A stretch of DNA of 36,524 nt from Hadesarchaea archaeon. GTDB taxonomy: Archaea > Hadarchaeota > Hadarchaeia > Hadarchaeales > Hadarchaeaceae. The notes under the pieces were generated by a model. The model searched no databases. It worked only from the letters and a program-made list of their open reading frames with translations, and was not told the origin of the DNA. The stretch is from the NCBI GenBank assembly GCA_030601675.1, contig JAUWBN010000013.1, positions 1 to 36,524 of the forward strand. The letters are read 5' to 3'. This document shows, in pieces, positions 21,741 to 36,524 of this stretch; within the stretch, counting starts at the first letter, position 1; each line of letters begins with the position of its first letter. The position numbers and the translations under genes are program-made.

Positions 21741-22634
21741 TCAGGTCAAGAAGCTGATCAACACCATGATGGAAAACACCACGAACATCAAAATTGAAAG
21801 CTGTGCTGGCCGCCACCTGCGTTTGAAAACAAACTTGAGGTCCTTGTAAGTCGCTCCCATATTCTTCCGCACTCCCCTGATCCCCCATACGACCACTGAA
21901 AAGTAGAGAAATGCGACAACTGCTAAGAAAACCACCGCGAGTAGTGGCATCGTCATGAAGTTCCAGAAGATCTCGGGCGAAACGTAAGCCTCAATCGGTG
22001 CCGCGAGGAAAATCAAAAACGCGCCCACTCCGGCCACCAAGAGGAAATCCACCAAGAACTCCTTGACCTCACCCTTGTGCCTCCGAAGCTCCCGTTTTTC
22101 CTCCCTCGAGAAGCCCCACGTCCATAGATTTCCACTGCGCTTCGCCACCGCCGCCATGTGTCCCATTCCCTTCCAGAGGGCCCAAGCCGCCCGCAGTGCA
22201 ATCGCCGCGACGATGAAGATGCCCGTGAGTTCAAGCACGCCGTGAACGAAGATGCCTGCCACGAACGCTAGGAATACCCCCGCCCCTGCAAAGTGGTACC
22301 AGTAGGAGAGGTTCATCCCAGTAAAGTAACCGCCGAGTAGTAGCGACGGGAAGCTGAGGTAGGCTGGGGTTCCGGCCACGTACAGCCCGGCGACCCTCAA
22401 GTTGTGGGACCAATAATACTGCGTCCGCGCCCAGTCGTCCATCCGCCCGACGTTCTCGACCGCGTTCTTATACTCCTGTGCCCCCGGTTGCTCCAAGAAC
22501 TCGGATGGCTTGTAAGCTAGGATATAGTAGGCAGAGCTCAGGGCCATCACGAGCAGGCCCAAGACGATGACGAGAGATATCGCCGAGGAACTCCGCCTGA
22601 AAGCGTCGAGCGTCCTCCTCGCGGGGTTCACCAT
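21741..22634 (-). CDS. SpoIIM/DUF95 family integral membrane protein
   Basis: The product has about five hydrophobic helices. The signature GGYFTGM...GIFVHGVLELTGIFIVAAIALRAAWALW, a conserved H-G-x-x-E-x-x-G-I-F in mid-membrane, is that of the stage II sporulation protein M family. In archaea these proteins are of unknown function and sometimes pair with RDD or AAA genes. ATG 22634 or GTG 22631 follows GAGGTGG; an ATG at 22664 is possible but overlaps hisI by 14 bases. It is the last gene in line with the histidine operon, its start overlapping or touching the hisI stop, so it is probably co-transcribed but has no evident link to histidine synthesis. Confidence 0.78.
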   Translation of the reverse strand: MVNPARRTLDAFRRSSSAISLVIVLGLLVMALSSAYYILAYKPSEFLEQPGAQEYKNAVENVGRMDDWARTQYYWSHNLRVAGLYVAGTPAYLSFPSLLLGGYFTGMNLSYWYHFAGAGVFLAFVAGIFVHGVLELTGIFIVAAIALRAAWALWKGMGHMAAVAKRSGNLWTWGFSREEKRELRRHKGEVKEFLVDFLLVAGVGAFLIFLAAPIEAYVSPEIFWNFMTMPLLAVVFLAVVAFLYFSVVVWGIRGVRKNMGATYKDLKFVFKRRWRPAQLSILMFVVFSIMVLISFLT

Positions 22635-27280: not shown

Positions 27281-29323
27281 CTAACCACCTCCCTTGAACT
27301 GTTTTATCGTCTCCACGAGCCGCTCGTTCTGCCGCGGCGTGCCGACGGTTATCCGGATGTAATCCGAACCAGCGCCGCGAAAGTTCGAGAGATCCCGCAC
27401 GAAAATTTTACGCTCGGCGAGAAAATCGCAAACTTCTGACGCATCCAGCCCAAGCGAACCGACATCGACCATCAAAAAGTTCGCGTCAGATGGTAGGACC
27501 CGGAAATCGAGCTTCGTGAGCTCGCGGCGTATGTACGTCCTTCCCCGCCTCACCCTCGCCACGACCCTGCGCATATATCGCCTGTCCCGTAGGGCCGCGA
27601 TCGCCGCGGCTTGGGCTAGGCGGTTGACGTTAAATGGCGCGCGGATTCCCTCGAGCGCCTCGATCAGCTTGGGGTCGCCCACCGCGTAGCCGACCCTCAA
27701 ACCCGCGAGTCCGAAAGCTTTGGAGAACGTGCGGAGCACCAGCAGGTTTCCCGTCTTGGTCGCGAGCTTTGCAACCGAGTCGCCCGCGAACTCGGCGTAC
27801 GCCTCGTCGACGATGATCAGCCTTCCGCTCGCCAGCAGCCTCCTCAGGTCTCTCAAACTCATGCCGTTGCCGGTTGGGTTGTTCGGCCTGCCGATGAACG
27901 CCAATTTCGTCCCCTCCAAGGCGCGCTTGAGTTCGGCCGCACGCCACTCCAAGTTCGACAGTTCGAAAAATTTGGGCACCCCTCCGTTGACGCGGCACGC
28001 GAGCTCGTACATCGCGAACGTGGGGAGGGGGATTAGCGCCCGCTCGCCGGGGTTAAGGAAAGCTTTGCATGAGAGGTCCACGAGTTCGTCTGAGCCGTTC
28101 CCGATCGCCACGCACTCGATCTCGACGCCGATGTAGCTACCTATCGCGCGCCTGAGTTCCGTGGCTCGGGGGTCGGGGTATGAACCAACGCGCGCCGCCT
28201 CCCGCTTGAGCGCTCGAAGCACGCGGGGGGATGGACCGTAGGGACTCTCGTTGGAGGCGAGGTTGATGGCCCCCGCTGCCCTGACATCGTATTCGCGGGC
28301 AAGCGGATACGAAACCCGCGATCGCAGCATCCCACTGACGCGTTTTGAAATCATTTTTTTGCCTCCGGAGGGTCGGTCGCTGGCGGCGCGGCGCTTCCAC
28401 ACGTATTTCCGCTCGTACGTCAGCTCGCTGGGCACCCCCAGGCGCTTGAGCACCCCTTGGGCCTCTTCCAAGCTGCGGGTGGGCACCAGCTCCTTCGCCA
28501 CCCCGTTTATCCGATCGAATACCACCCGAGGGTCTAAGTAGAGCGTCATCGCCGACATAGGGGTCAGCAGGGTCTTGCGACGGCCTTCGCGAATTTCGAT
28601 CTCCCCCTGAAGCCCCCGGGCCGCCTTGACCGCCAGCGCGCTTGATTCAGTTTTGGTCTTGGGGATCACCTCATCGAGCACCTTCAAATCATCGGGGGTC
28701 AAGCCCCGGGCGCCCAAAAATCCACCGTAGCCGGCGATGCGAGCGACTTGTTGGTTGAACTGCTCGAAGCTGAGCTCGCCGTCGGTGCCGCAACCCAGCA
28801 CCCCCAGCACCACGGGCACTTTCAGGTTGACCATCGAAGCCAGCACCATACTATCCGCCAACATACTGTGAACACCCACCTCCGAACCCTCGGCCAAGAC
28901 GTCACCTCCAACGTCGACCCCCACAAACAGATCTACCCCCAGCTGCTCGATTGCCTCGTTCAGACCATCGATTGTCCCCTGTACCCCGCGGTTGAGGTCC
29001 ACGAGCACGGTCTCCTCGCCCAGCACCTCGGCCACGACCGACTCGGTGAAGCGGATGCCCTTGGTCGTTCGCGTTCGGGCGTTCGCCAGCCCTACCGTCG
29101 CTGAGAGCCGCTTGATCTCGACTATCTCTTCCATCTTGCGGGGGCCCGGCTCCGGGTCGTTCACGTAGCGCTCCCAAGTCAGCCCACCGACCAGCGTTCG
29201 GATTCCCAGCAAGCGCAGGTAGCGTGAGGTCGGTAGAGTTCCCACTACATCGCCCCCTCCACCTATGCCTAAGACCAGCGCGTAGCTCGACTCCTTCACG
29301 AGCACTTCGAGGGACTTCCCCAT
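27281..29323 (-). CDS. hisC: Fusion of a DUF1152 domain with histidinol-phosphate aminotransferase
   Basis: Residues 1-323 are a complete DUF1152 protein (LGIGGGGDVVGTLPTSRYLRLLG, FVGVDVGGDVLAEGSEVGVHS, LGVLGCGTDGELS), a family of unknown function with a glycine-rich nucleotide-like start. Residues 324-680 are a full-length HisC, the PLP transaminase of histidine synthesis. They show INLASNESPYGPSP, GNGSDELVDL, IGRPNNPTGN and the PLP-lysine in TFSKAFGLAGLRVGY. No stop separates them. The junction is GGC AAA AAA ATG: methionine 324 has its own GGAGG seven bases upstream, and the run of seven A continues into ATGA. With six A the first gene would stop at TGA overlapping the second ATG. It may be a true fusion, a slippage site giving two products, or a one-base assembly error. 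It heads the his operon, under a TATATAA promoter near 29357. Confidence 0.9.
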   Translation of the reverse strand: MGKSLEVLVKESSYALVLGIGGGGDVVGTLPTSRYLRLLGIRTLVGGLTWERYVNDPEPGPRKMEEIVEIKRLSATVGLANARTRTTKGIRFTESVVAEVLGEETVLVDLNRGVQGTIDGLNEAIEQLGVDLFVGVDVGGDVLAEGSEVGVHSMLADSMVLASMVNLKVPVVLGVLGCGTDGELSFEQFNQQVARIAGYGGFLGARGLTPDDLKVLDEVIPKTKTESSALAVKAARGLQGEIEIREGRRKTLLTPMSAMTLYLDPRVVFDRINGVAKELVPTRSLEEAQGVLKRLGVPSELTYERKYVWKRRAASDRPSGGKKMISKRVSGMLRSRVSYPLAREYDVRAAGAINLASNESPYGPSPRVLRALKREAARVGSYPDPRATELRRAIGSYIGVEIECVAIGNGSDELVDLSCKAFLNPGERALIPLPTFAMYELACRVNGGVPKFFELSNLEWRAAELKRALEGTKLAFIGRPNNPTGNGMSLRDLRRLLASGRLIIVDEAYAEFAGDSVAKLATKTGNLLVLRTFSKAFGLAGLRVGYAVGDPKLIEALEGIRAPFNVNRLAQAAAIAALRDRRYMRRVVARVRRGRTYIRRELTKLDFRVLPSDANFLMVDVGSLGLDASEVCDFLAERKIFVRDLSNFRGAGSDYIRITVGTPRQNERLVETIKQFKGGG

Positions 29324-31652: not shown

Positions 31653-31738
31653 TTTTATTGGGCTCGCTTAAACGCTTTGTGTGAGTTTTATTTGATTTGT
31701 CGTATATGATTAAATCGGGCCCGTAGTCTAGCCTGGAT

Positions 31739-31761
31739 AGTGGCCAAGCAAACACCCAGAC
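31739..31761 (+). other. tRNA-Arg intron 1, D-loop (non-canonical position)
   Basis: This intron begins AGTGGCC and ends CCCAGAC, 23 nt. Central helix CTGG (31733-31736)/CCAG (31756-31759). 5' bulge ATA is cut after AT; 3' bulge ACA is cut after AC. An inner stem GTG/CAC closes a 10-nt loop. The ligated exons restore the D arm exactly. Confidence 0.8.
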
Positions 31762-31778
31762 AGGACACAAGCCTGCGG

Positions 31779-31793
31779 TCGAAAACGGCAGCA
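31779..31793 (+). other. tRNA-Arg intron 2, position 37/38
   Basis: The 15-nt intron TCGAAAACGGCAGCA has central helix CTGC (31773-31776)/GCAG (31788-31791). The 5' bulge GGT is cut after GG and the 3' bulge CAA after CA, with an inner CG-AAAA-CG hairpin. The outer helix is the anticodon stem itself, a textbook bulge-helix-bulge. Confidence 0.85.
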
Positions 31794-31828
31794 AGCTTGC
31801 GGCTCGGGTTCAAATCCCGACGGGCCCG

Positions 31829-32043
31829 CTCCCTTTCGGATTTACTTATTGCTCGCGTGCAACCCACTAACATAAATTGGCTCGCTATCGGCTTTCCTCG
31901 AGCGTCCTCTCGAACTTGTAGAGCTCTTTGTTTTTCTCCATGGCTTTGCCCAAAATTCCTTCGCCTCTCTAAAGGGAAGCAGAAAGAACATTAGAAAAAC
32001 TCTTTAAAAAAAGGCGCGCTAAGAGTGCTATTTAAATATGTAG
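31829..32043. other. Gene-poor stretch downstream of tRNA-Arg
   Basis: No convincing ORF is present on either strand here. An AT-rich element with TTTAAATA lies at 32032-32039 and could promote the integrase-tail-like ORF that follows. I looked for, and did not find, a second copy of the tRNA 3' end that would mark an attachment site. Confidence 0.5.
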
Positions 32044-32163
32044 ATGCTTTCTGCGAACGCGGGGCGCGTGCCGAGGTCTGTGCTCGCACGGCATTACACA
32101 GATTTTAGTCCCGAACGATTAAAGCGAGTCTACGATAAGGCGGGCTTGAAGGCTCTCGTGTAA
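32044..32163 (+). pseudogene. Small ORF resembling the C-terminal tail of an integrase (copy 1)
   Basis: The 39-codon frame (ATG 32044, or GTG 32068) contains SVLARHYTDFSPERLKRVYD and ends in a stop after GLKALV. In tyrosine recombinases the end of the catalytic domain often reads 'x-HY-x-x-x-S-x-x-x-L-x-x-x-Y', with the first Tyr as nucleophile, so this looks like a stranded integrase C-terminus. A second, diverged copy lies about 270 bases further on. Its place just after a tRNA fits the remnant of an integrated element. The TTTAAATA at 32032-32039 could drive it, so a functional micro-protein is not excluded. Confidence 0.4.
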
Positions 32164-32256
32164 AGGCGCCCAAAATTGATGAGATTGCGAAGCCAAGGTG
32201 ATGAACTTATGGGCGTCTTTTATCTTCTCAGAACATGTTCTAAAGGGGTGAAATCT
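32164..32256 (+). other. Possible stem enclosing two GATGA motifs
   Basis: GCGCCCA just after the integrase-tail stop can pair with TGGGCGT about 40 bases on, followed by TTTTATCTTC. The loop holds two GATGA motifs. It could be a terminator or a small structured RNA. No CTGA boxes are present, so it is not a C/D guide RNA. Confidence 0.25.
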
Positions 32257-32301
32257 ATGATGCGAAAGAAGAAAAAGCCGAAAAAGAAAAGGCGTTGCTA
32301 A
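32257..32301 (+). CDS. Very short basic peptide ORF (14 aa)
   Basis: ATG 32257 follows a strong ribosome site (AGGGGTGA, five to six bases upstream) and encodes MMRKKKKPKKKRRC, then TAA. Composition is almost wholly Lys/Arg. A GAACATGTTC palindrome lies just upstream at 32231-32240. It could be a leader peptide, a minimal ribosome-associated basic peptide, or chance in A-rich DNA. Confidence 0.3.
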   Translation: MMRKKKKPKKKRRC

Positions 32302-32313
32302 TCTGCTTGGTTT

Positions 32314-32511
32314 GTGGCGCGTTTTTGCCGTCGAGTTCCGAAGTCGGTCTTGGCGAGGCACTACACTGACTTCAGTCCCGAGCGGTTGAAGCGGATATAT
32401 GACAACGCAAACCTGCGGGTGCATTCCCCCTCGGGCAATCCCCCCGTCGTGGGGTTCACGTGCGGGCTTAAGTCATATCGACTATCTCGGCTTTCGGAGC
32501 GTTCTCTTTGA
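32314..32511 (+). pseudogene. Small ORF resembling the C-terminal tail of an integrase (copy 2)
   Basis: The 65-codon frame begins with GTG 32314 and includes VPKSVLARHYTDFSPERLKR, which differs from copy 1 only by conservative changes over about 24 residues. The DNA differs at many synonymous positions, so the two tails come from diverged genes rather than a recent duplication. The rest (SPSGNPPVVGFTCG...) does not resemble copy 1 and its end overlaps the DUF1508 gene on the other strand. It is probably the remains of a second integrase at this tRNA. Confidence 0.4.
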
Positions 32512-32650
32512 CTGATTCTATCCCGTTCATGCAGCCCGCCTTAGCCACGTACCCTTCGCCAGTCGCAATCGTCTCTCCGTTCGGTGCTTTCAGTCTGAAT
32601 CGGTATTCGCCCTTCGCATCCTTGTAGACCTCAAATTTTGGTTCTGCCAT
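32468..32650 (-). CDS. DUF1508 (YegP-like) domain protein
   Basis: The 60-residue product reads AEPKFEVYKDAKGEYRFRLKAPNGETIATGEGYVAKAGCMNGIESVKENAPKAEIVD without gaps against the DUF1508 pattern: 'F-x-x-Y-x-D-x-x-G-x-Y-R-F-x-L-x-A-x-N-G-x-x-I-x-x-S/G-E-x-Y' then 'K-x-x-C-x-x-G-I-x-S-V'. It is a single copy of the domain. Members are found in bacteria and archaea, often near mobile or stress genes, and have no proven function. It starts at ATG 32650, with an AT-rich promoter region upstream. Confidence 0.9.
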   Translation of the reverse strand: MAEPKFEVYKDAKGEYRFRLKAPNGETIATGEGYVAKAGCMNGIESVKENAPKAEIVDMT

Positions 32651-32761
32651 TTTTCACCCCCCTACTTTTCCAATTTTCTTGTGTTATTTCAATAATTATC
32701 TTGCCATTGTTTCTTTCTTAAGTTTTACCATGAGCCGTGAGCAATGGCGTCAACCGGCTTT

Positions 32762-32811
32762 GCACATAAATTGATTCCTGCACATAAATTGCCGTGTTCG
32801 CACAAAAACTG
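32762..32811. repeat. Three short iterated repeats upstream of the PHP/ATPase gene
   Basis: GCACATAAATTG at 32762-32773 is repeated exactly at 32780-32791, and a degenerate copy GCACAAAAACTG lies at 32800-32811. Spacing is 18 and 20 bases. They lie about 100-150 bases upstream of the PHP/ABC ATPase gene and could bind a regulator or be iteron-like. No regulator gene is adjacent. Confidence 0.5.
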
Positions 32812-32907
32812 GGACATGAGGAAAAACAGAAACGATTTTGCAACGGGACCGTCACCAGTCGTAAGCTTTATTCCATTTGAACCACGACGATTTGACAGGG
32901 GGTTGGA

Positions 32908-34986
32908 TTGTCGCGTGAAGCGAAAACAATTTCTAGTAGGTACAAAAAATTGATGGATCAGGGGTGCGGGGCAATATTTTGCAAAGTTGATTTGCACGTC
33001 CACACGCCCGGTTCTAATGACGCCCAGGCCTCAAACAAATACGGGTTCTCGTACGAAAAAAGGAAGGGTGAGGCGGGGATAGACCGAGAGGTCAGGGAGA
33101 TCGCCGGTAAGATCGTCGAAGCCTGCGCGAGGGAAAGCCTGTCATTGATCGCCGTTACCGACCACAACAGCCCGGGGTATGTGAATCGGTTCGACATAGG
33201 TTCAAAGACATGGTACACCCTGATCAGGCGGGCCGTGAAAGAATCGAACAGTAAACTGGTGGTTTTGCCCGGGTGCGAGATTTCCACAGACGATGCGCAC
33301 GTGTTGGCAATCCTGCTTCCCGAGGAGTCGATCGAAAAAGACGCTTACAGCGCCTACCGGATCGCTTTCATGCTCAGGGCCTGCAACTTCAAGGTGGAAG
33401 ACTACGGGATACTGGCGCGAACGGGCAGCAAGAGCGTCCTCGAAACGATCAGGATGATAACCGAGAGCGGCGGAATCGGCATCCCCGCGCACATAGACGG
33501 CGGGAACAAGGCGATGCTTAGCCATTACAAGAAACCCGGAACGATTTATGTGAATTTAATGAACGAGCCGGGGCTCAACGCCCTGGAGATAGTCAGGAAA
33601 GGCCTGAGAACCAGCAGGAGGAGGTTCAAATCCAGAACCGTCCAAGGTTACTTCAACGCGATACGAAAACCACCCAAATATCCAATCGCGTTCATCCAGA
33701 ACTCAGACGGCCACTCGCTCACGGAAATCGGCAGGAGGTTCACGCACGTCAAGATGGAAGAACCGTCCTTTTACTCGATCCAAAACGCCTTGAGCGACCC
33801 GGAGACGAGGTTGAGGCTCAAGGGGGAGATTCGACCCCACACGGGCAAGACCTTCATCTTGGGGATGTGCATCCGGAAGAAAAACAAAATACAGTGCATA
33901 AGGTTCAACGAAAACCTCAACTGCATCGTCGGGCGCCTGGGCTCATACAAGTCGACCATACTGAAACTCCTGACGGACGCGCTCGGCCGCGTCAGAGAAG
34001 AGGAGAAAGAGGACTTTTCCTACCTGAAAAAATTGGGTTACGACGTTCAGGCGTTCGTAAAAAAGGACGTCGAAAACGCGGAGGTGCACTGCTTTTCGAA
34101 AAAATGCGGTGCTGACAAGCCCGATGTTTACAAACTCGGGGAAGACGGCGAGTGGAAGCCGATAGACGCGAACAGCATCGATTTAAAGCTTCCGAGGCTT
34201 TTTAACTCCAAACTGGCAATGGAGAGGTTCACGGACAGCGACAGATTAATCGATTTCCTGAGACGGGTGTGTTTCGCCAACACCCGCCGAGAGAAAAGGT
34301 TTTATAAATTGCGGGAGAAAAAGAAGGGCCTCATTGAAAAAATCAAGAGCACCGAAGACCCTGATAAAATAAACAAATTGGTGGACCGGCTCAAGAAGTG
34401 CATGGGCAGCATTTCGAAGATGGGGGAAATATTCGAGAAAGAACTCAAGAAAATCTACAGCTACCGGAGCGGAGAACCCATACTGAAGCTAAAAACGAAG
34501 AAAGGGGTATACCAGAACACGGAGAAGCTTCTGACTGCGATAAAAAGCGGAAAACCGATCGACGACGTGCTGACCCTTTATTTGGTGTGCGACGGGGCGA
34601 AGAAAAAGAAGTTCAAATCGCTAACGCCCGGCGAAAGAAACGTGGTCGTCATGATCGTGCTGATGAGCCAGGACTCGTTCGGCCCCCTGGTCATCGACGA
34701 ACCCGAATCGTTTTTGGACAAGGAAGTCATTTCCAGCTATCTGGTGCCGAGGCTGCGGGACCTCAAAGCAAACCAGCAGTTGATAGTCGTGACCTCGAAT
34801 CCGGACATGGTCATCCTCGGGGACAGCGAAAACGTGATCGCGACCGAGCCAAGTAAACAATTAAAAATCGTTGAAAACGGCGACATCTACAAGGAGAGCA
34901 TAAAAACCAAGGTACTCGACGTGCTGGAGGGCGGGGAGGAGTCCGTAATCAGGCGGGGCAGGAAGCTGAACGTATTCGAAGCCTGA
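32908..34986 (+). CDS. PHP-domain / ABC (SMC-like) ATPase, TrlF-like
   Basis: Residues ~20-290 form a PHP metal phosphoesterase: DLHVHTPGS, AVTDHNSPG, VLPGCEIS, GIPAHIDGG and NSDGHS in the right order. Residues ~320-690 form an ABC/SMC-type ATPase interrupted by a short coiled coil (~465-520). The layout is that of TrlF-family proteins, often found with mobile or conflict genes. The nucleotide motifs are altered. Walker A reads VGRLGSYKST (Tyr before Lys where Gly is normal), the signature reads SLTPGER, Walker B is VIDEPE, and the H-loop reads VTSNPDM (Ser-Asn instead of His-Asn). At ~690 aa it is shorter than most relatives I know. TTG 32908 has AGGGGG upstream; ATG 32953 is an alternative. 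It lies inside the tRNA-adjacent island. Confidence 0.78.
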   Translation: MSREAKTISSRYKKLMDQGCGAIFCKVDLHVHTPGSNDAQASNKYGFSYEKRKGEAGIDREVREIAGKIVEACARESLSLIAVTDHNSPGYVNRFDIGSKTWYTLIRRAVKESNSKLVVLPGCEISTDDAHVLAILLPEESIEKDAYSAYRIAFMLRACNFKVEDYGILARTGSKSVLETIRMITESGGIGIPAHIDGGNKAMLSHYKKPGTIYVNLMNEPGLNALEIVRKGLRTSRRRFKSRTVQGYFNAIRKPPKYPIAFIQNSDGHSLTEIGRRFTHVKMEEPSFYSIQNALSDPETRLRLKGEIRPHTGKTFILGMCIRKKNKIQCIRFNENLNCIVGRLGSYKSTILKLLTDALGRVREEEKEDFSYLKKLGYDVQAFVKKDVENAEVHCFSKKCGADKPDVYKLGEDGEWKPIDANSIDLKLPRLFNSKLAMERFTDSDRLIDFLRRVCFANTRREKRFYKLREKKKGLIEKIKSTEDPDKINKLVDRLKKCMGSISKMGEIFEKELKKIYSYRSGEPILKLKTKKGVYQNTEKLLTAIKSGKPIDDVLTLYLVCDGAKKKKFKSLTPGERNVVVMIVLMSQDSFGPLVIDEPESFLDKEVISSYLVPRLRDLKANQQLIVVTSNPDMVILGDSENVIATEPSKQLKIVENGDIYKESIKTKVLDVLEGGEESVIRRGRKLNVFEA

Positions 34987-35034
34987 AATTTGTAGGGATG
35001 GCAGTTAACCCGAATCTATTATCGCCGAAATCGC

Positions 35035-36264
35035 TCACTTGCGCGTTTTTACGGAAAAGAGTACAGCGCTGACCACCGCGATCGCCACCACGACCACCCC
35101 AGTCACGAGCAACCAGTTCACGCCTTTTGGAAGGGCCTCGCTTTCTGTGAGAGCCCAAGAGACCACATCGACTTCGATCTCGACCTCATGGCACTCCTCA
35201 GGCCAGCGCTCAATGAACTCTTCCGTGGCGTGCTTGACCCCCACCGAGAACCTCTCCACACCGCCCCAATGCATAAAAAACCTGTGTTCGGGATCGGCCC
35301 GCTCGACGACATCCCTGAACATCAGTGTGAGCCGGTCGGCAACGTCTTTCTTTTCCCAATTTTCCGGGATGTTCTCCCTGCAGAATTCTTGGAGTTCTTC
35401 CCAGAAGTCCTCTGGGAGGCTAGCTCTTGGTATTTCCTCCAGAGGGGTTGCCTCCTTAACCTTGAAAGTCGCGATGAGGGTAGTAAACAAGTCAGTCCCC
35501 GAGGCTCTGACGTTATCCACGATTACCCGGTAGGTTCCCGCGTATACCGGAAACAGCTCCACGGCGTGGCTGTAATTCTCCCACGGCCTCAGCTCAACCC
35601 CCACTGGAGCCCAAACGCTTGGCATCACCCATTTAGCTAGCATCCACCTGCCTTCATGGAGGTATTGGATATTATACTCCGTCCCAAACGAGAGGTGCGT
35701 CTGGCCCTCATTGCATATGGTGTAAACTAGATTATCGCTGCTAGTGAACTCCTCTTTGTTCAGTGAAATCGTGGCGTTGAGTTCTTGCGAAGGGACGTAT
35801 AAAGTCGATATGAGTTTAGCAAACACGCCACCATTCTCATCCCTAATCACCACGCCGAACTTGTAATGCGCCGGGGCAACGTCGGGAACCCTAGTTCTCC
35901 ATCTAACGTCCCCAACTGTTTTAATCTCCCGGTTTTCCTGATCGACCACCCTTACGAAGTTTCCCTCCTCATCGATTTGAATGAGTTTGAGTTCCACCGG
36001 GCCGGGGAGATCAACTGCGTGCTTCCAAGCATAAAACCACACAGTGACATTTTCACCGGGCTTAGTGATGTCAACACTAATAGAATATCCGAGCGGTCCG
36101 GGGCAGAAGATCTCCTCGGTAACGAATGATCGTTCGACCGACATCCACGGCTCAATCTCCGGGTCCCCTTCTCCCATCGCGCTTCCTCTGACGGCATTAA
36201 GCGACAACACGATAACTATCAACAGTATGGACACTAACGCCAGCGATAACTGGACATTTCTCAT
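35035..36264 (-). CDS. Membrane-anchored surface protein with Ig-like domain
   Basis: The protein has an N-terminal signal peptide (LSLALVSILLIVIVLSLNAVRG), a ~360-residue exported part and one C-terminal transmembrane helix (WLLVTGVVVVAIAVVSAVLFSV) with a short basic cytoplasmic tail. Residues ~170-265 (LNKEEFTSSDNLVYTICNEGQTHLSFGTEYNIQYLHEGRWMLAK... YAGTYRVIVDN) match the pattern of bacterial Ig-like domain Big_14-type folds. The first ~150 residues are beta-rich and a helical, acidic region (~270-370) precedes the membrane. No enzyme motif is seen. It is divergent from a second membrane protein, in the same way as the beta-propeller gene at 17583, with a shared upstream block. Confidence 0.7.
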   Translation of the reverse strand: MRNVQLSLALVSILLIVIVLSLNAVRGSAMGEGDPEIEPWMSVERSFVTEEIFCPGPLGYSISVDITKPGENVTVWFYAWKHAVDLPGPVELKLIQIDEEGNFVRVVDQENREIKTVGDVRWRTRVPDVAPAHYKFGVVIRDENGGVFAKLISTLYVPSQELNATISLNKEEFTSSDNLVYTICNEGQTHLSFGTEYNIQYLHEGRWMLAKWVMPSVWAPVGVELRPWENYSHAVELFPVYAGTYRVIVDNVRASGTDLFTTLIATFKVKEATPLEEIPRASLPEDFWEELQEFCRENIPENWEKKDVADRLTLMFRDVVERADPEHRFFMHWGGVERFSVGVKHATEEFIERWPEECHEVEIEVDVVSWALTESEALPKGVNWLLVTGVVVVAIAVVSAVLFSVKTRK

Positions 36265-36298
36265 TTTTCATTCTCGGTAAAATTCACCTCTTTTAATT

Positions 36299-36322
36299 AT
36301 TTAAATTTAGTTTCACGAACGA
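36299..36322. promoter_or_regulatory. Upstream block shared with the beta-propeller promoter
   Basis: ATTTAAATTTAGTTTC followed by ACGAACGA matches 19 of 24 bases of 19453-19476. In both places the block starts exactly 35 bases from the first base of the minus-strand start codon (36264 and 19418). ATTTAAAT is the TATA box of the leftward gene; GAAACT next to it could be a BRE or an operator. Confidence 0.5.
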
Positions 36323-36387
36323 GCTTTGCACAATAATTCCAAAATGTGTTTAAGTTACTTGTGAGAGAGCAAATACTGGTGAGGGAA

Positions 36388-36524
36388 ATGAAGGGAAAAT
36401 TCTGGGTTCTGGCGGTTATCATCTCTGCGGTAGTCGCGGGGTCGGCTGGCTACTTTGCCTGCCTCTACTTGGGGCAGCGCGTCACCCTCGGGGATGACAC
36501 CTATAAAGCCGTGGAGATAGGAAG
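36388..36524 (+). CDS. Small membrane protein, N-terminal part (runs off the window)
   Basis: ATG 36388 follows GGTGA. The first 45 codons give a short basic start, one hydrophobic helix (FWVLAVIISAVVAGSAGYFACLYLG) and then RVTLGDDTYKAVEIG before the sequence ends. The order (helix, then a short strand with '(T)LG/ID-x-x-Y') resembles the start of the winged-helix membrane protein at 19524 (TIDNVRYEVE). It may therefore be a second membrane-tethered regulator, but the DNA-binding part, if any, is outside the window. Confidence 0.55.
   Translation, partial: MKGKFWVLAVIISAVVAGSAGYFACLYLGQRVTLGDDTYKAVEIG

Follow-up and report, generated by a model that had tools for sequence, protein, structure and literature searches.

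A tRNA-Arg(GCG) gene with two bulge-helix-bulge introns in a Hadesarchaea genome with a single alpha-type EndA

The stretch of DNA analysed here, called the window, is the 36,524-nucleotide contig JAUWBN010000013.1 (our C18) of a Hadesarchaea genome from the phylum Hadarchaeota, referred to as G000 (938 kb in 35 contigs, 85.6% complete). The gene at positions 31717-31828 of the window is very probably a functional tRNA-Arg(GCG) carrying two bulge-helix-bulge (BHB) introns, one in the D loop and one between positions 37 and 38 (37/38), both of which would be cut by a single alpha-type splicing endonuclease, EndA, with the exons joined by RtcB. As BHB introns the two are ordinary and of a known kind; what stands out is that a relaxed, multi-position set of introns is paired with a single alpha-type EndA.

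The gene and its two introns

The Rfam tRNA model RF00005 matched exactly this segment with 44.7 bits (cut-off 29) when candidates were scored genome-wide under more permissive conditions. No tRNA was reported in the window by ARAGORN or by an Rfam gathering scan, each at its default settings, which tRNA genes of this type escape. The segment was also analysed with a parser written for the purpose, which enumerates zero to two BHB introns (4-bp central helix, 3-nt bulges and an inner helix) and requires a full cloverleaf after splicing. A single solution was obtained, a tRNA-Arg(GCG) with introns of 23 and 15 nt (Table 1), whose spliced product of 74 nt had all its stems paired (7/7, 4/4, 5/5 and 5/5). 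The discriminator base is G, and CCA is not encoded.

The model match and the unique parse agree with the first-pass annotation of this DNA, which had placed a tRNA-Arg(GCG) here from the letters alone. The perfect 74-nt cloverleaf that it described, and its 23-nt D-loop and 15-nt 37/38 introns with 4-bp helices and 3-nt bulges, were likewise recovered by the parser and by the orthologues described below.

Both introns have a 4-bp central helix and two 3-nt bulges, and a complete cloverleaf is left on their removal. In the D-loop intron the central helix is CUGG/CCAG, the bulges are AUA and ACA and the inner helix is 3 bp long (GUG/CAC); a repeated AG leaves an ambiguity of at most 2 nt in the cut sites. 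The 37/38 intron has the central helix CUGC/GCAG, the bulges GGU and CAA, an inner helix of 2 bp and an outer helix of 5 bp. When the letters of each intron were shuffled in place, a BHB of equal quality appeared in 21 of 200,000 trials for the D-loop intron and in 81 of 200,000 for the 37/38 intron.

With introns allowed (option -i), ARAGORN reported a tRNA-Ala(AGC) with one 38-nt intron. This candidate was rejected, as it lacks U33, has an A34 anticodon and has exon boundaries that are contradicted by the orthologues of G011 and G006; no relative was seen with such a gene. The comparative data refute it, and its probability is negligible.

A second complete tRNA-Arg(GCG), which the first-pass annotation had named as one finding that could overturn its reading, was sought in the 85.6% complete genome of G000 and was not found, and the segment formed by the T arm and the acceptor had a single perfect occurrence in that genome. 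The tRNA-Arg(GCG) is presumably essential, as CGC is the commonest Arg codon among the genes of the window (172 of 669; 226 for CGC plus CGT) and the search brought up no other GCG tRNA.

Orthologues and other interrupted tRNA genes

Orthologues were collected by searching relatives for the 5'-exon pattern and reading each locus, which gave 18 Hadarchaeota genes including that of the window; the gene of G004 is cut by a contig end. The D-loop intron was present in eight of them, always at the same site, and the 37/38 intron in eight; five genes had both (G000, G002, G007, G010 and G017) and seven had neither. The doubly spliced product was identical over 74/74 letters to the naturally intron-free gene of G011. 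In the closest genome, G006 (93% DNA identity over an aligned stretch of 619 bases that includes the gene), the exons were the same and the 37/38 intron was identical, and what was missing was exactly the 23-nt D-loop segment. The 37/38 intron was missing in G011, G012, G013, G003 and others. Its motif, parsed with looser settings in G002, G007, G010, G014, G017 and G025, has an inner helix of only 1 bp in these six genomes, and in G002 and G007 also just 3/4 central pairs.

The predicted exon boundaries are proven by those orthologues that lack one or both introns, and the comparison with G006 and G011 leaves no simpler explanation of the insertions than introns. The gene could be read in five further genomes of the genus, four with the D-loop intron and one, G006, without it. 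On this split, loss of the intron in G006 seems a simpler reading than a recent gain in G000. This near-identical pair, differing by one exact D-loop intron, offers a clean case for the study of intron gain and loss.

Interrupted tRNA genes were also found elsewhere in these genomes, in a census that covers individually examined loci and in which genes with long introns or more than two introns are partly unparsed. At least six tRNA genes of G000 have D-arm introns, and four of them have a 37/38 intron as well, namely Arg(GCG), Glu(TTC), Gly(CCC) and Val(CAC); Arg(CCG) and Lys(CTT) have a D-arm intron. In two genera (G000 and G017), tRNA-His(GTG) is interrupted in the T loop by an intron whose BHB is of textbook symmetry (TTCG/CGAA, 6-bp inner helix). 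In G000, G006, G010 and G017 together, 48 introns were parsed, 17 at 37/38 and 31 at other, non-canonical positions, a count to be taken as approximate, since some details of a few non-37/38 parses may be incorrect and the parser left several genes without a solution. Outer helices measured 0-2 bp in 10/10 parsed D-loop introns versus 5-7 bp in 16/17 introns at 37/38; D-loop introns lean on the inner helix. The first-pass annotation had considered two introns in one tRNA notable: the two introns are real, but the gene is not isolated and belongs to a pattern that runs through the genome and the phylum.

The tRNA-Asn(GTT) gene of G000 (L038) contains a long anticodon-loop intron and an apparent further insertion of about 16 nt at the junction of the acceptor and the D stem, where GCCGGGG is followed by TACCGTAAGGGCCCGA and then by TAGCTCAG.

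A dead or decaying tRNA copy, with the D-loop segment as a random insertion and the decoding done by another tRNA-Arg(GCG), could be suspected from the abrupt loss of synteny where the gene ends on its 3' side (31829), which implies a rearrangement there, and from an assembly that is just 85.6% complete. All stems are intact once the gene is spliced, however, and the BHBs of both insertions lie far beyond what chance would give; no second GCG tRNA was seen in the genome, CGC is the commonest Arg codon in the genes of the window, and eight orthologues as well as other isoacceptors carry an intron at the same D-loop position. We therefore consider a decaying copy very improbable and a functional gene the preferred reading.

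The splicing endonuclease and the proposed processing

EndA is encoded in G000 by one frame of 184 codons, which contains both the N-terminal (PF02778) and the catalytic (PF01974) domain, and its Tyr116, His126 and Lys157, invariant in the alignment, are the expected catalytic triad. A single subunit of about 180 residues with one N-terminal domain, one catalytic domain and a Tyr/His/Lys triad corresponds to the alpha4 type, and the Hadarchaeota enzyme is probably homotetrameric. The protein is 99% identical to that of Hadesarchaea CSMAG_1141 and 63-94% identical to those of other Hadesarchaea and of Hadarchaeum, which places the organism in Hadarchaeota. Its AlphaFold monomer model (mean predicted local distance difference test score 87.7) had the structure 1A79 as best match (E 4.6e-19, 42% identity). 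The gene for RtcB, the archaeal tRNA ligase, was also found (E 1.1e-182), so that the host has both the endonuclease and the ligase.

Directly upstream of the EndA gene lies the apparent 3' part of a tRNA (L041), and the region upstream of it contains ATGATGA and CTGA-like boxes, resembling the box C/D-bearing intron of archaeal tRNA-Trp.

A heterodimeric or otherwise broad-specificity EndA, as expected in the first-pass annotation, was sought, and only the single alpha-type EndA was found. When PF01974 was searched across 61 genomes, one EndA was obtained in each of the 22 matching genomes of the window's order and never two, whereas two were found in genomes such as G030, G036, G037, G058 and G059. 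An alignment-based search with a profile of 12 EndA sequences, at E values up to 5, revealed no second copy in seven genomes, five of them more than 90% complete. The second PF01974 match of G000 (contig C13, E 0.027) was discarded, as it reads as an antisense-like frame, has no PF02778 and was missed by the alignment search. Every matching Hadarchaeota genome had a single EndA gene with a single catalytic domain, and neither a second subunit nor a fused three-unit chain, as in the (alpha-beta)2 and epsilon2 enzymes, was found.

The crenarchaea-specific loop with its conserved Lys was not found in the Hadarchaeota EndA either, the insertion of about nine residues of Aeropyrum pernix being aligned to a gap. 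The site of this loop is occupied by GKPLSGG (residues 36-42 in L031 and its relatives, with a conserved Lys37). This motif is conserved across the aligned Hadarchaeota EndA sequences and is missing in Hydrothermarchaeum, the most distant EndA relative recovered, in whose genome four introns were parsed, 4/4 at 37/38.

The introns could be real and their processing depend on an undetected beta-type EndA subunit, or on another nuclease, that gives broad specificity as in Crenarchaeota. Elsewhere, abundant non-canonical introns do accompany (alpha-beta)2 or epsilon2 enzymes (PMC6379350, PMC4090602). Against such a partner stand the single EndA in 22/22 matching genomes of the order, by a profile that does find two in genomes such as G030, the one match per genome in the permissive alignment search and the antisense reading of the weak second match. 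We consider it unlikely.

With a single alpha-type EndA at work, the gene would be transcribed as a 112-nt precursor containing both introns. The D stem would form in this precursor and let the central helix of the D-loop motif stack near it. EndA, probably as a homotetramer, would cleave both motifs, that of the D loop despite its short exon-side helix, and RtcB would ligate the three exons into the 74-nt tRNA, which would decode CGC and CGU.

Several points weigh against this scheme. The D-loop motif has an outer helix of only 1 bp beside the bulge, the D stem restarting 3 nt away; therefore, it is of the relaxed HBh' form and not the full symmetrical hBHBh' form, which among the two introns is found in that at 37/38. 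The lowest-energy fold includes the D-loop motif but not the BHB at 37/38, where a slipped hairpin containing 1x1 mismatches is favoured. Reviews limit alpha4 enzymes, like alpha2 enzymes, to the cleavage of canonical BHB motifs and assign to euryarchaea mostly single introns at the canonical position (PMC4033280, PMC4090602). Finally, the assembly is only 85.6% complete and may lack another EndA subunit or another tRNA-Arg(GCG) that the genome has, although the same gap in all the relatives tested is not plausible.

The relation between the subunit type of EndA and the tRNA introns that are tolerated is a standard example of RNA-protein co-evolution, in which broad specificity goes with enzymes of the (alpha-beta)2 and epsilon2 types and with a lysine-bearing loop (PMC6379350, PMC12397907). 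Hadarchaeota appear to be a counterexample, with many non-canonical introns, several two-intron genes and one alpha-type EndA. A homomeric alpha-type EndA that has acquired broad intron specificity with neither a beta subunit nor the crenarchaea-specific loop, possibly through GKPLSGG, is a serious possibility that we put forward only tentatively. If true, it would break the published rule that confines alpha4 enzymes to canonical motifs and would represent an independent route to intron-rich tRNA genes. Hydrothermarchaeum, without GKPLSGG and with all four parsed introns at 37/38, provides the natural comparison with Hadarchaeota, and the small EndA is expressible.

Surroundings of the gene and comparison with known systems

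Similarity to all relatives is lost precisely where the tRNA gene ends on its 3' side. From there on, the DNA (31829-36524) differs from that of G006, whose neighbour past the tRNA gene is common to G010, G013 and G017, and it is likely that this lineage underwent a rearrangement or insertion of its own at the tRNA end. The precise stop of synteny at 31829 could also mean an integrated element with the tRNA 3' end as its attachment site. The only further copy of that end found in the genome, with one mismatch, lies inside tRNA-Arg(CCT), and no convincing repeat was found downstream of the tRNA within the window.

Beyond the tRNA gene, the window encodes an ATPase of 692 residues with weak SMC/AAA similarity, a small frame that by eye is YegP/DUF1508-like, and two nearby frames with an apparent SVLARHYTDFSPERLKR-like peptide product each, a small gene duplicated locally. 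On the other side, within a cluster of histidine biosynthesis genes, a frame of 680 residues combines DUF1152 with a HisC-like aminotransferase in an apparent fusion.

Table 1. Coordinates of the tRNA-Arg(GCG) gene, of related loci in G000 and G017 and of neighbouring frames (positions without a contig prefix are those of the window)
Feature	Location	Strand	Evidence
Exon 1: acceptor 5' strand, D stem 5' strand, initial D loop	31717..31738	+	RF00005, parser; identical in G006 and G011
D-loop intron, 23 nt, AGTGGCCAAGCAAACACCCAGAC	31739..31761	+	BHB; precisely lacking in G006, G011 and eight further orthologues
Exon 2: end of D loop, D stem 3' strand, anticodon stem 5' strand, GCG, position 37	31762..31778	+	Parser, orthologues
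37/38 (canonical-position) intron, 15 nt, TCGAAAACGGCAGCA	31779..31793	+	BHB; identical in G006
Exon 3: from position 38, anticodon stem 3' strand, variable loop, T arm, acceptor 3' strand	31794..31828	+	Parser
tRNA-His(GTG), L040	G000:C13, match 22199-22252 and downstream
tRNA-His(GTG), L198	G017
tRNA-Asn(GTT), L038	G000:C33:14113-14230 and 5' flank
Apparent tRNA 3' part, L041	G000:C6:20210-20261 and upstream
EndA	G000:C6:20518-21051		PF02778, PF01974
RtcB	G000:C25:6882-8189		E 1.1e-182
DUF1152 and HisC-like frame, apparent fusion	27281-29323	-
SVLARHYTDFSPERLKR-like frames	~32040-32165 and 32314-32511	+
YegP/DUF1508-like frame	32468-32650		Judged by eye
ATPase, 692 residues	32908-34986		Weak SMC/AAA similarity

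No description of tRNA introns in Hadesarchaea or Hadarchaeota was found in the open-licence literature, and an earlier description elsewhere is possible. Known exceptions to the canonical pattern are the non-canonical introns of Korarchaeota and of three thermophilic euryarchaeal methanogens (PMC3218864), and very many non-canonical tRNA introns have been described in two Asgard lineages (PMC11291895).

The Hadarchaeota genes resemble those of Thermoproteales (Pyrobaculum, Thermofilum), in which small canonical and scattered BHB introns occur, often two or three per gene (PMC3218864, PMC8450103). However, the broad-specificity EndA of Thermoproteales is a heterotetrameric (alpha-beta)2 enzyme (PMC6379350), whereas that of Hadarchaeota is of a single alpha type and has no crenarchaea-specific loop. 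Korarchaeum cryptofilum, according to PMC4033280 the sole archaeon in which an alpha2 enzyme occurs together with non-canonical introns, shares with Hadarchaeota one EndA gene and such introns, but the Hadarchaeota EndA is devoid of the insertion of the Korarchaeum enzyme.

Multiple introns per tRNA within a euryarchaeal lineage are also known from Methanopyrus kandleri and Methanothermobacter thermautotrophicus (PMC4033280). The EndA of M. kandleri is heterotetrameric with a constrained broad specificity (PMC6379350), in contrast to the single alpha-type EndA and the numerous non-canonical introns of the Hadarchaeota genomes surveyed. The Asgard lineages Atabeyarchaeia and Freyarchaeia, whose genomes are also derived from metagenomes, have many non-canonical and multiple introns outside Crenarchaeota (PMC11291895), although their phylum is unrelated to Hadarchaeota. 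For the enzyme itself, the alpha4 EndA of Methanocaldococcus jannaschii (1A79) is the closest solved fold and among the closest sequences, with 42% identity along one full-length subunit; it differs at the GKPLSGG site, where it has GN-VEGN and where A. pernix has the crenarchaea-specific loop.
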